Part shown: one piece after another, positions 20,330 through 60,800 of the stretch
How positions within the stretch are numbered: the stretch's first letter is position 1
Layout: each line of letters starts with the position of its first letter
NCBI GenBank assembly: GCA_002104935.1
Contig: MCGT01000005.1
Span: 62,001-126,000, forward strand
Length of the DNA stretch: 64,000 nt
Reading direction: 5' to 3'
DNA from: Hesseltinella vesiculosa
Taxonomy: Eukaryota; Mucoromycota; Mucoromycetes; Mucorales; Cunninghamellaceae
Notes under the pieces: generated by a model
What the model was told of the DNA's origin: nothing
Database searches by the model: none
The model's input: the letters and a program-made list of their open reading frames with translations, nothing else
Translations under genes and position numbers: made by a program

Positions 20330-22516
20330 ATGGAGCTTGTATTAGGCAGTTTTAATGGGGTGATGATTCAAGGCAAGAAGCCTCGTCGACCAAAGATGCG
20401 CAAAGTCGTTGGTGGGCGAGCACCCTTAGTTCTGAAGCCTCCCGATTCCCCACCCCCGACCGTTTCCTATGATAAACCGCCACCCGATCACTCAGAGCAA
20501 CAAACAACCACAACATCTCCTGTGGCTTCATCACACTCACCCAAAAACTCGAACAGCATATCACCAATTCATTTGTATTCGCCCGATCAAACACAGCCTG
20601 TTGTGCCTTTCCGGTCTCCTCCTCAGCAGATGCTGCAGGTCTTGGTCCAAATGCTCCAGAACAACGGCCAAGAGCATTGGTCCATTGAGCAACTCGAGAA
20701 TAGCAACTATCGCATCCACTTGCATTCGATTCGGGATATGGATAGGCTGTTGCATCTTCTCCAGCGGTTCTCGACGTCCGCTACCTCCAATGTCCCCGTG
20801 CCGTTTCCTTCCTTGATCAACCCTGACCATCAACAGCAACTTTCCAAGTGGAACCCAGTGCGTCTGCCCTATATCCGTTATCATAGCGAGTTGTACCCCA
20901 AGACAGTCTACGCACCTCCTGTTGACTGGCCACCGTTCCACTCGTTGCTGCCGTTGCTGCTCGACAACTGCGTCCACACTTTTATCACCTGCATGAATCA
21001 TTATTTTCCTGTTCGGCCCAAGAACTTCCTTATCGCCTGGTATTCGTCCTTAGCCGACCCCGAGACCGACCCGCTTGTGCTGTCGATTGCTTCCTTTTGG
21101 GTACGCCATGTGTTCATCCACCACCCGATGCCTCAGGTCCAGCACTTGTACGATCACGACGTGCTGGATGCTGTCCAGCTCCGGCTTGGCCGCATGGCCC
21201 GCCAAGCCATCACCGACTGCTTTGACGAGCCACATGTCCACACCGTCTACGCACTCTGCCTCTGCAACGGCACCACCGTCATCCCTACCGAGCAAAAGGT
21301 CACCAACCACATGCTCGCCGCTCGCATGGCCGCTGCCCTCGACATCCGCCCAATACCACAGTCCGAAACTGCCGACGACCCTGAAATGGAACTGAAAGCT
21401 CGCCTTTGGTGGTACCTGTTCCAGATCGATCATTTCTTAGTCGAGTCCAACGCGATCCCACACTCGATGCTGCAGCCTGCGTCGGACGATTCGGACGAGC
21501 TGACCTTGCTTCGCCGACCCACCCCCTGCGCCTTTGACAACACCGATGAGATCCCTGGCGTGCATTGCTGGAACAACACCCTGAAGCTTTGGCTGATCCG
21601 CCGCCGCCTGTCCCAGCAGATGGATACGATCGACCCCAGCGACGAACCGACCCTCGCGTCCCTCTACAACCACGGCCTGCGTTCTGTGGACCAGTGGCAG
21701 CGTGAATTGCCCAACACTCTCCAGCAAGCAACCGCCCTCAACACCGAGCATTTTGCTAAATTTGGCGAAGCCTGCCTGACGGTGAGCATGGAGCGATGCA
21801 CCAATGTCGGGCTCTTGTCGCTCCGCCTGCTGCCTACCGACGGTCGAGTGCTGACTGGCCTCCAACGCCGTGCCCTCTTCAACATGATCGACAGTGCCAC
21901 AGAGCTGATCACCATCCGCCAATCCGTCATGTCTTCTGCCCATTGTCAGACATGGCCCGGCAACTCGTTGCGCTCGATCAAGATGCTCATGTCTTGCTTG
22001 TACTATGGCGACCCGGATATCACGGGTCGCTCCCGGATTGGTCTGATGCGGGCGGCCCGCATGCTGCGATCCATGGCGGAGGTGCGCTGGAAGGATCCCG
22101 TCTGCACCCAAGTCCTTCTCAAGATCGAGCAGCTTCTGGCCAGCGAAACGCCCGAGACCCTGGTGTCCTTGAATGACGATGACGACAGTGACGATCCTGA
22201 TATCTCCCATCCACCGTCCACCTCAACCGCTCCTCCGCCATCGCCCTTCATTCCTCCAGCCGCTTTCCCTTGCTCACCGCCCTCCACCGTCTCTCCCCCG
22301 CCAGCCGCCCGTCACCAGCCCGAGTCCGCCGCCTCGTCTCGGTTTATACCCACCAACGGCCATGAAAAACGCAGCATCAAGATCGCCAACAACCTGTATG
22401 AAGGCGTTGTCCTGTTAGATCGTGATATGCAGCCTCGTGCCCAGTTCTATAACCCTAATGCCTCGACCGACGACTGTCTTGACTCCATGCTTTTATTCGA
22501 GGATGGCCGTCACTAG
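20330..22516 (+). CDS. Fungal-specific transcription factor-domain protein without visible DNA-binding domain
   Basis: A single uninterrupted frame of 728 residues begins MELVLGSFNGVMIQGKKPRR. The N-terminal 100 residues are basic then Pro/Ser/Thr-rich and contain no Cys6 cluster or C2H2 finger. Residues about 190-450 read as a fungal_trans (middle homology region) domain: HYFPVRPKNFLIAWYSSLAD, then SIASFWVRHVFIHHP, LARMAAALDI-like ARMAAALDIRP, and ELKARLWWYLFQIDHF. The C-terminus has an acidic block (DDDDSDDPD) and Pro-rich segments that could activate transcription. It is intronless in an intron-rich neighbourhood. It may act as a cofactor or use an unrecognised DNA-binding region. A zinc-cluster exon could also have been lost or misread, but I see none upstream. 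Confidence 0.7.
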   Translation: MELVLGSFNGVMIQGKKPRRPKMRKVVGGRAPLVLKPPDSPPPTVSYDKPPPDHSEQQTTTTSPVASSHSPKNSNSISPIHLYSPDQTQPVVPFRSPPQQMLQVLVQMLQNNGQEHWSIEQLENSNYRIHLHSIRDMDRLLHLLQRFSTSATSNVPVPFPSLINPDHQQQLSKWNPVRLPYIRYHSELYPKTVYAPPVDWPPFHSLLPLLLDNCVHTFITCMNHYFPVRPKNFLIAWYSSLADPETDPLVLSIASFWVRHVFIHHPMPQVQHLYDHDVLDAVQLRLGRMARQAITDCFDEPHVHTVYALCLCNGTTVIPTEQKVTNHMLAARMAAALDIRPIPQSETADDPEMELKARLWWYLFQIDHFLVESNAIPHSMLQPASDDSDELTLLRRPTPCAFDNTDEIPGVHCWNNTLKLWLIRRRLSQQMDTIDPSDEPTLASLYNHGLRSVDQWQRELPNTLQQATALNTEHFAKFGEACLTVSMERCTNVGLLSLRLLPTDGRVLTGLQRRALFNMIDSATELITIRQSVMSSAHCQTWPGNSLRSIKMLMSCLYYGDPDITGRSRIGLMRAARMLRSMAEVRWKDPVCTQVLLKIEQLLASETPETLVSLNDDDDSDDPDISHPPSTSTAPPPSPFIPPAAFPCSPPSTVSPPPAARHQPESAASSRFIPTNGHEKRSIKIANNLYEGVVLLDRDMQPRAQFYNPNASTDDCLDSMLLFEDGRH

Positions 22517-48066: not shown

Positions 48067-49323
48067 TTACAAAATGGAACACTTGTTCTTCTTCTTCTTG
48101 ACCAACAAGGCAGCACGAGTGGCGTGTTCAAAGACTTCACGCACACCATCACCAGTCTTGGCAGAGCATTCCTATTTTTGGATGAAAACGAAATCAGATG
48201 GGGAGCCCACTTTTTTGCCCATGGTCTTTTTTAAAAAAAAAAAAACTCCTGTGCAACAACTTACCAAGTACTTGTAAGCGTGAATGCGTTGAGCAACAGC
48301 AGCGCCCTGGTGAAGTGGAGGAGAAAGATGAGTCTGTCGCTTTTCATTTGATCAAATGACCTACTTCTTCCTGAGAGACAGGTCGTTGTGAGTTCTTTCG
48401 AAGTTCTTCGATAGTAGCAGGATCATTTCGCAAATCCTTTTTGCAGCCAACCAACAACACAGGCAAGCCCACGCAGAAATGAAGCACTTCAGAGATCCAC
48501 TATTAAAAAAAAGGAGAATGCGGAGGAGTCAGATAAAAGATGTCGCAAGGGGAATGGAAGGGGCTTTTTTTTTTTTACTTTTTCTTGAACGTTGTCCAAG
48601 GAATCAGGTGAATCGACGGCAAAACAAATCAAAATGACATTGGAGTCGGGGTATGACAAAGGACGAAGACGGTCATAATCTTCTTGGCCTATTAAAGGAA
48701 AATAAAAAAAAAAGGCATCAATGAAAGGATGAGAGATAGAGAGGGAACAACTAGAATAGCCTGTCTCCTATTTTTTTTTTTAAAAAAAAAAAGAGATGAA
48801 GGGAAATGAGGCTTTACCAGCAGTATCCCACAAAGCCAATTCAACGTGTTTGCCATCGACTTCGACATCGGCAACATAGTTTTCAAAGACGGTAGGAACA
48901 TAGAATTCAGGGAAAGTACCCTTGGAGAAGACAATCAACAAACAAGTCTATGAAAGAAGGAAAAATTTGGTGAGTCCGGATCCCAACATCTCTTTTTTTT
49001 TGAAGTGAAACTTACCCTAATAAAAAAAAACATAAAAAAAGAGCATGACACGCACGAAAGAAGAATGAAATGGTAAGTTTTTAGCACCTATTTTCTGGTT
49101 GTTGTTGCCAGCGTAAAACTGGTCGTGTCATCATCTTGATGTTTTCTACTTACTCTATGATGATAAAGAAAAAGGAAAAAAAGATGGATGAGTTTTCATG
49201 TAACCAAAAAAAAACACCGTAGTCTCATCATTTTTTATGAATGAAGAAAGAAAAATAACCGAGGTACTTACTGCCGCAGGCACCATCACCAACAATAACT
49301 AATTTCCTTCTGATTTCGGCCAT
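48067..49323 (-). CDS. RHO1: Rho1-type small GTPase with two one-nucleotide microexons
   Basis: This is a membrane-bound Rho GTPase controlling beta-glucan synthesis and polarity. My model uses exons 49323-49272, 49154 (one nucleotide), 49016 (one nucleotide), 48947-48818, 48688-48579, 48499-48365, 48306-48265 and 48171-48067. They total 576 nt and code for 191 residues. Exon 1 ends after GDGACG plus a single A. The next large exon starts [10 protein letters not shown]. The missing two bases of the P-loop lysine codon come from the A and G at 49154 and 49016, each set exactly between an AG acceptor and a GTAAG donor. The rest is standard: [43 protein letters not shown] and a polybasic CAAX end ([10 protein letters not shown]). 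The skipping alternatives lose the frame. Confidence 0.93.
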
Positions 49324-57800: not shown

Positions 57801-60800
57801 ATGCCGACTTCCAAAAGGTCTGGTTTGGCAAGAAGAAGAACGGCGATGTCGTCGACTTGCAAGAAATGACCTACACCGAGGTCGTCGACCGCATGATCGA
57901 GCTGCTCTACATCAAGCACGAATCCCGCTGGATCGATGTCACCCTGCGCAACCTGGTGGGCGACTTCTTGCGCCGCATCGAAGAACGTTTCAGCACTGCC
58001 GAAGCCACCTCCTTGCTCCAATCCTTCAGCCAACTCGACCACCCTGCTGATTTTGCCGCCGACTTCTTGGCCCAGTACCCCGATGCCGATGTCCAGCTGC
58101 TGACCTCCGAAGATGTGCTTCACTTTGTCACCCTCTGCCAACGTCGTGGTCAAAAGCCCGTCACCTTTATCCCTGTCATGGACAAGGACTTTGACGTGTG
58201 GTTCAAGAAGGATTCCTTGTGGCAATCCGAAGATCTCGCTGCTGTGGTCGATCAAGACGTCCAACGCACCTGTATCCTGCACGGCCCTGTCGCTGCCAAG
58301 TATGCCACCCGTGTCGACCAACCTGTCGCTGAAATCTTGGGCGACATCTATGCCAGCCACATCGCCAGCCTCAAGGAGAAATACTATGCCAACGACGAAG
58401 CTGCCATCCCCGTCATCGAATACCTCGGTGGCGCTGCCGCCTCCACCACCACTGTCCAGCCCAGCTCTGCCTCGGAAACCCAGCGCGTGTTCTTGACCGG
58501 CGACAACGAAACCGCTTTGCCCTCTGACACCGAGTGGTTCCAAGCTATCACCGGATCCCAAGCCAGCTGGCTGCGAGCCCTGATCACCAGTCCTTTTGTC
58601 GTCCAAGGCAAGCGCTTCGCCGACAACCCCTTGGCCCGTGTGCTGCGTCCCCGCCCTGGCCAAAAACTGGTCGTCAATGCCAATGCCCAAGGCTTCACCT
58701 CCTTTGTCGTCCAAGACAAGCGTCTGTGGAGCGCCACTACCAAGACAAACGAGTTTGTCACCTCCGTCGAAGCAGCCTGCACTGGCAACGACATTGCTGT
58801 CACCATGTACGAACAACGTGATCAGCATGCCGTGCCCCTGAAGCTCCAATTCACCTACAAGCCTGAATTCGGCTATGCTCCCATTCACGAAGTCATGGAC
58901 GTAAGTCTGCCCTCTGTTTCTTGGCCAAGCTCACCTTTTCTTTTTTCTCACCTTTTTTTTTTTTTTTTTTTTTAATGTAGGGCCGTAACGACCGCATCAA
59001 AGAATTCTACTGGAAGCTCTGGTTTGGCATGGATGCCAATGACGACTTCCTCAGCATCCCTGTGACAGAAGAATTGATTGGCAAGAACGAAACTGTCCAA
59101 GCCGCTGAAATCAAGGAATTCTGCCAAGCCGTCGGCAACCAAGCTGAAGTGTACGTCGACCGTGGTCAAAAGATGATTTATGCCCCCATGGACTTTGCTA
59201 TTGTGGTTGGCTGGAAGGCCATCATCAAGGCCATCTTCCCCCGCGATATTGACGGTGATCTGCTCAAGTTGGTGCATCTGTCCAACGGCTTCCGCATGCT
59301 CGAAGGCGGTGAGCTTCTCTCTGTGGGCGACGTGGTCGACACCTATGCCAAGATCAACGCCATTGTCAACAACGACTCTGGCAAGATGGTCGAAGTCAAG
59401 GGCGTCATTGTCCGCCAAGGCAAGCCTGTCATGGAAGTGACCAGCCAGTTCTTGTACCGCGGCGACTTCACCGACTTTGAACACACCTTTGAGCACAAGG
59501 TCGAAGTGCCCATGAACCTGACCCTGAACTCTGTCAAGGACATTGCCGTGCTCAAATCCAAGCAATGGATCGACTGGACCGACGAGATCGACAACTACGA
59601 ATTGACCCCTGGCTGCTCCTTGATCTTCCGTCTCCAAACAGAATACCGCTACCTCAACAAGCGCGTGTTTGCCAGCGTCAAGACCATCGGTACCGTCGAC
59701 ATGAAGGTGTCCACCAAGGAAATCGTCAAGGTCGCCAACGTCGACTATGAGGCTGGTGAAAGCCATGGCAACCCTGTCATCGAATACCTGAAGCGCAATG
59801 CCCAAGAAATCGAGCAAGCCCACACCTTTGAAAACGGCGGCTACTCGGTCATGCCTGCCGAAGCCATCTACTCGTCTGTTGTGCACGCCCCTGCCTCCAA
59901 CGAACCTTATGCCAACGTGTCTGGCGATTTCAACCCTATCCACGTCAACCCCTACTTTGCCGACCTCGCCGTCCTACCTGGCACCATCACCCACGGCATG
60001 TGGACCAGCGCCTCCACTCGCAAGTTTGTTGAAATCTTTGCCGCCGACAATGTTCCTCGCCGTGTCGTTGCCTACCAGGTTCAATTCATGGGCATGGTCT
60101 TACCTGATGACCGCCTCGAAACCAAGCTGTACCACACCGGCATGAAGAACGGCCGCAAGACGATCAAGGTCGAAACCACCAACCAGAACAACGACAAAGT
60201 CGTCGTCGGCACTGCTGAGGTCGAACAACCCGTCACCGCCTATGTGTTCACCGGCCAAGGTTCGCAAGAACAAGGCATGGGCATGGCTTTGTATGCCAGC
60301 TCCTCTGTCGCCAAGGAAATCTGGGACCGCGCCGACCGCCACTTCATGGAAAACTATGGCTTCTCCATTCTTGACATTGTGCGCAACAACCCCAAGGAAA
60401 AGACCGTCTATTTCGGTGGCCCCCGTGGTAACAAGATCCGTCAAAGCTACATGTCCATGAACTATGACGTTGTCGAGGCCGATGGCTCCATCAAGACCTT
60501 GCCTCTGTTCCCCACCATCAACGAACGCACTGCCTCGTACACCTTCAAGGCTCCCAACGGCCTTCTCTCAGCCACTCAATTCACCCAACCTGCTTTGACT
60601 CTCATGGAAAAGGCTGCCTTTGAAGACATGCGTGCCAAGGTAAGCAGCTATTTCTTTTCATTTAGTTGGACAAACAAAACTAACTCGCCCTCGTTTTTTT
60701 TTTTTTTTAGGAATTGATTCAATCTGGCTGTGCTTTCGCTGGCCACTCGCTTGGTGAATATGCTGCTTTGGCCTCTGTGGGTGATGTGTTGCCTCTTGAA

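Follow-up and report, generated by a model that had tools for sequence, protein, structure and literature searches.

A Rho1 gene with an incomplete P-loop lysine codon

The window analysed here, a 64-kb stretch of DNA on contig C45 of a 27.05-Mb genome (G000), contains a complete Rho1 gene on its minus strand that raises the question of how its P-loop lysine codon is put together. Exon 1 ends in GGC-A at 49272 and is followed directly by GTAAGT, and exon 4 starts with ACT-TGT at 48947, leaving a gap of 324 nt from which the second and third bases of the Lys codon have to come. The gene was identified as Rho1 by its GKT P-loop together with its overall Rho1 sequence. Its predicted structure, spanning 48067-49323 with eight exons and encoding 191 residues, is as follows (slashes mark splice junctions).

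49272..49323, minus strand: exon 1, 52 nt, from ATG to GGC-A; its last base is base 1 of the P-loop Lys codon
49155..49271, minus strand: intron 1, 117 nt, GTAAGT...CATAG, phase 1 within the Lys codon
49154..49154, minus strand: exon 2, 1 nt, A, base 2 of the Lys codon; CATAG/A/GTAAGT
49017..49153, minus strand: intron 2, 137 nt, GTAAGT...TTAG, phase 2
49016..49016, minus strand: exon 3, 1 nt, G, base 3 of the Lys codon; TTAG/G/GTAAGT
48948..49015, minus strand: intron 3, 68 nt, GTAAGT...CATAG, phase 0, between Lys and Thr
48818..48947, minus strand: exon 4, 130 nt, first codons ACT TGT (Thr Cys)
48579..48688, minus strand: exon 5, 110 nt
48365..48499, minus strand: exon 6, 135 nt
48265..48306, minus strand: exon 7, 42 nt
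48067..48171, minus strand: exon 8, 105 nt, stop codon included; C-terminal residues KKKNKCSIL

The exon edges, the two single-nucleotide sites and the intron lengths of 117, 137 and 68 nt had been proposed in a preliminary description of the locus and were correct to the base. Computing the coding sequence reproduced its sum of 576 nt, including the stop codon, and 191 residues.

We enumerated the ways of placing AA or AG between the fixed edges GGCA and ACT, as one 2-nt exon or as two 1-nt exons, with introns of 20 nt or more that start with GT or GC and end with AG. With these edges fixed, exactly one GT/GC-AG solution in the 324-nt gap restored Gly-Lys-Thr, a single-nucleotide A followed by a single-nucleotide G. 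A 2-nt exon of either sequence, preceded by AG and followed by GT or GC, was absent from this gap, as the preliminary description had stated, and from the gap of the second Rho1 gene described below. Each gene thus has two single bases with AG before, GT after and usable introns on either side, and with the edges fixed both bases are required by the frame and the conserved motif and belong to the sole canonical solution. When A, G or both were left out, or one of the three introns was retained, translation stopped at 18-44 residues in both genes. The earlier claim that using neither or one of the bases breaks the frame was therefore upheld, the protein ending by residue 44.

We also examined the P-loop in Rho homologs. 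GKT was present at this position in 120 of the 120 best-listed homologs out of 7,988 found, and the Mucorales proteins in this set all read GKT. Such annotations would be surprising if all of these genes carried two 1-nt exons; the Mucorales readings are nevertheless uninformative, because they come from the best-scoring 120 of 7,988 only and badly modelled proteins rank too low to be among them.

The arrangement is repeated in a second Rho1 gene

A DNA search of the genome identified a second Rho1 gene on contig C21, referred to here as Rho1b, with the gene in the window as Rho1a. Exon 1 of Rho1b ends in TGT-GGC-A/GTAAGT and exon 4 starts with ACT-TGT, with a gap of 353 nt between them. Again exactly one solution was found, TATAG/A/GTAAGT and TATAG/G/GTAAGC, with introns of 97, 183 and 71 nt. 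Apart from the 1-nt exons, all exons of both copies were intact and in frame. The proteins were identical at 177 of 191 aligned residues, and the two genes differed by a Ks of ~1.15 and a Ka of ~0.05 (Nei-Gojobori counts, Jukes-Cantor corrected), giving a Ka/Ks of ~0.05. In a protein tree built from 33 Rho1 rows, 31 of them selected among the 120 listed homologs and the other two being the copies themselves, both copies fell with Halteromyces, Cokeromyces and others. Support for this placement was weak, and the duplication is therefore dated by Ks only.

The cores of introns 1, 2 and 3 showed identities of 0.36, 0.42 and 0.54 between the two copies, which lay within the range of the shuffled cores (30 shuffles each; means 0.44, 0.45 and 0.46; maxima 0.58, 0.54 and 0.65). 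Intron 3 of both copies contained a common 14-nt A-rich stretch and may have kept a slight residual similarity. We take the retention of the splice sites around both bases, when nearly all of the remaining intron sequence has drifted beyond recognition, as the chief evidence for genuine 1-nt exons. Conservation across homologous genes was observed in one paralog, that on C21; searches of viral contigs and genome contigs returned no DNA relatives from other species. The repetition of the structure in a second gene, like the GT-AT alternative weighed below, was not part of the preliminary description.

We asked how often such solutions arise by chance, using 20,000 dinucleotide shuffles of each gap and counting GT-AG solutions with introns of at least 40 nt. 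For the Rho1a gap, 17,325 of the 20,000 shuffles had no solution, 2,283 had some 2-nt exon and 416 had two 1-nt exons flanked by bare AG and GT; the corresponding numbers for the Rho1b gap were 15,420, 3,837 and 868 of 20,000. A canonical solution of some kind was therefore present in 13% of the Rho1a shuffles and 23% of the Rho1b shuffles, and a bare solution in a single gene is accordingly not strong evidence. The pair TAG/A/GTAAGY followed by TAG/G/GTAAGY occurred in none of the 20,000 shuffles of either gap. Hence a bare solution is not very rare, but the strong, ordered A-then-G pair is. On both strands of the window, AGNGTAAGT had two matches, both of them the Rho1 1-nt exon sites, with 0.80 expected. 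A count of two was reached by 19 of 100 whole-window shuffles, so the number by itself is unremarkable, and it is the position, the order and the identity of the bases that are remarkable.

Splice-site quality and rarity of paired sites

Exactly three GTAAG motifs were present in each Rho1 gap, every one of them at a donor. GTAAGY donors were found in all six P-loop introns of the two genes versus two of their eight other introns (Fisher, 0.0097), and the U1 RNA of this genome has the 5' sequence ATACTTACCTG, which is complementary to GTAAGT. A candidate for the branch-site motif YTNAY lay 10-58 nt before the end of all six P-loop introns, none of which had a competing AG in its last 25 nt. 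The other eight introns likewise had a YTNAY candidate and no competing AG; these are ordinary features, and the motif is loose. In Rho1b, the pyrimidine tract of the acceptor preceding G is weak (9/18). A search for U12 RNA gave no match, and neither did its controls.

Across both strands of the genome, TAGNGTAAGT occurred 89 times, and TAGRGTAAGY was found at 115 sites in 27.05 Mb. Among the 100 of these 115 sites that were listed, four same-strand pairs lay less than 500 nt apart, in Rho1a, in Rho1b, on C36 (A, A) and on C40 (G, G), and the A-then-G order was found only in the Rho1 genes. By eye, both C36 sites looked like ordinary donors where open coding stretches end, and the two C40 sites sat in repeats without an open frame; both pairs were rejected as micro-exons. 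We further screened 42 TAG(A/G)GTAAG(T/C) sites at 40 loci, out of the 115, ranked by pyrimidine content. This superficial screen (sequence of L090; frames of L090, L096, L091 and L079) gave no convincing further 1-nt exon, and a search with TAGNGTAAG, which had 325 sites, gave nothing further among the matches listed.

Alternative explanations for the missing bases

On the basis of the sequence, we consider it very likely that Rho1a is an apparently functional gene whose AAG Lys codon is assembled from three exons, with three GT-AG introns removed stepwise by intron definition. The same codon could be restored without micro-exons by a single non-canonical GT-AT intron, GGCA/GTAAGT...CAT/AGACT. 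Such an intron spells Lys because the AG of the final acceptor equals the two missing bases, and the last AG of the gap would then complete the codon. In both paralogs the lengths add up, with introns of 322 and 351 nt, and the finished mRNA is identical under the two models and hence cannot separate them. This intron would, however, have to end in AT in both genes although an ordinary AG sits two bases on, and the internal AG/A/GTAAG and AG/G/GTAAG sites, whose order is identical in the two genes, would become a double coincidence. It would also measure 322-351 nt, compared with 46-129 nt for the other eight introns of both genes. We therefore regard a GT-AT intron as improbable.

Two bases could also be missing simply because the locus is broken, through assembly error, pseudogene formation or chance. 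Against this, the same structure is found on two independent contigs, and the intact, in-frame exons and the low Ka/Ks between the copies do not point to a dead gene. Since the sole canonical parse recurs independently in the 324-nt gap and in the 353-nt gap of the paralog, we consider all three of these possibilities very unlikely. The crowding of three introns within 3 coding bases, which probably entails consecutive removal, recalls a stwintron, a nested arrangement in which an intron that interrupts the splice motif of another has to be removed before it. By definition, the internal intron interrupts the donor, acceptor or branch motif of the external one (PMC5639578), and stwintrons of filamentous Ascomycota are likewise described as intron clusters that undergo consecutive reactions with intron-definition pairing (PMC5639578, PMC12403724). 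In contrast to the stwintrons so defined (PMC5639578), each Rho1 gene has three GTAAGY donors and AG acceptors, all three introns possess their own complete splice sites, none breaks into a neighbour's donor or acceptor, and the introns are separated by two coding bases. The stwintron-like origin suggested in the preliminary description does not fit that definition, and a stwintron is the least credible of these explanations, with a next to negligible probability.

Proposed splicing mechanism and origin

Under the three-intron structure, the Lys codon AAG would be composed of A from exon 1, A from the first 1-nt exon and G from the second, and the three ordinary GT-AG introns would be removed by intron definition. 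Given their footprints, U2AF and U1 would not be expected to occupy both sides of a 1-nt exon simultaneously. Since there would be no room for the two together, introns 1 and 2, and likewise introns 2 and 3, would be removed in sequence, and introns 1 and 3 could go together. Each removal would leave an intact GTAAGY donor behind an exon that is longer by one base, and the bases before GTAAGY would change stepwise from CA to AA and then to AG. A 1-nt exon would thus resemble a ratchet point of recursive splicing, depositing a single base where a ratchet point deposits none. The geometry fits such stepwise splicing, whose occurrence and order are both proposals.

At the recursive-splicing ratchet points of Drosophila, no base is left behind and the introns are long; in the Rho1 genes, one base would be left each time and the introns are 68-183 nt. 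A ratchet point has an acceptor abutting a donor, with a zero-length exon, and here one base lies between them; the only AG/GT in either gap is TAG/GTGCTA, in intron 2 of Rho1a. Ratchet points share with the Rho1 sites the juxtaposed acceptor and donor and, with the mechanism proposed here, the stepwise removal (PMC8605326).

Single-nucleotide exons have precedents. The Arabidopsis APC11 gene has an experimentally verified 1-nt exon, for which its authors propose intron definition plus recursive removal; as in Rho1, one base forms a separate exon, but APC11 is a plant gene with one such exon and none in succession (PMC4674806). Conserved 1-nt microexons in plant APC11 and VPS55 are missing from reference annotations and were confirmed by RNA-seq and RT-PCR; that of VPS55 has conserved GTRAGT donors, comparable to GTAAGY in Rho1, and the exons of both genes are single (PMC8831610). 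Two adjacent microexons, of 5 and 12 nt, are described in rice in the same work (PMC8831610). In Fusarium, CYP621A contains a 1-nt exon, AG/G/GT, in a conserved motif, which its authors claim as the first fungal case; as in Rho1, it was deduced from frame and conservation, but it is a single exon in an Ascomycete P450 gene and is backed by 18 SRA reads (PMC12940212). A single 1-nt exon has also been reported in placozoan mitochondrial cox1, and consecutive longer microexons in RPS24. Searches of the open literature, a coverage that most subscription papers lie outside, found neither a pair of consecutive 1-nt exons nor a codon split among three exons.

The arrangement may have originated by repeated intron gain at adjacent sites of one codon. 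Cryptic-exon rescue, which has been proposed for the CYP621A exon (PMC12940212), is less likely here because two simultaneous rescues would be required. One could further imagine that selection keeps the arrangement in both Rho1 genes, with obligatory one-base-at-a-time splicing restraining Rho1 output, as a brake or a checkpoint, and a spliceosome in this lineage that routinely handles 1- and 2-nt exons. This reading draws on the finding that all tested errors in the splicing steps would give a short, non-functional product, and we consider it rather unlikely.

If the three-exon codon is real, intron definition needs no exon beyond one base, even twice running, and the two diverged Rho1 genes would provide a natural substrate for studying the order of intron removal. 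The neighbouring intron positions (A/A/G/) could also exemplify repeated intron gain at a single site. Codons split over 1-nt exons can be missed by gene predictors.

Introns and short exons in other small GTPases

We examined other small GTPases of the same genome. Two Ras-like genes (L008 and L009) had a single intron after the P-loop Lys codon. A Rab-like gene (L044, G000:C10:376700-378500, minus strand) had, by eye, a single phase-2 intron in the P-loop Lys codon, AA/GTAAGT..AG/A. Of the three Rho1 P-loop positions, two are thus occupied by single introns in these genes.

L009 requires a 2-nt exon, AG, at C15:258820-258821 on the minus strand, which completes a Glu codon (HFV-E-TYDP). Its junctions read CACTTTGTTG/gtaagt..ttacag/AG/gtataa..gttag/ACATAC, and it is the only canonical supply of two bases in the 176-nt gap. 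With this exon included, a 61-residue stretch was identical to the paralog L008 except for one residue. The same single-intron ambiguity as in Rho1 applies to L009, with a TT end. Since L009 needs a 2-nt exon, very short exons are not confined to Rho1. L008 has one ordinary intron where L009 has its 2-nt exon. Directly after its P-loop Lys codon, L008 (1030-1560) has an 18-nt exon (ACTGCATTGACTATTCAG) whose L009 counterpart is joined to the following exon.

Other observations in the window

Elsewhere in the window, a 728-aa open frame without a Pfam match was found at 20330-22516 on the plus strand. It has relatives in the Mucorales (Gongronella, Absidia, Cunninghamella and Phycomyces) and was closest to a Gongronella butleri protein (55%), followed by those of Absidia (49-50%) and Cunninghamella (46-49%), which places the fungus in the Mucorales close to these genera; some of the relatives are named transcription factor domain-containing. 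Another open frame on the plus strand, at 59029-60717, matched fatty acid synthase beta-subunit domains (FAS1 dehydratase region, MaoC and part of the acyltransferase) and is probably one exon of a larger gene.
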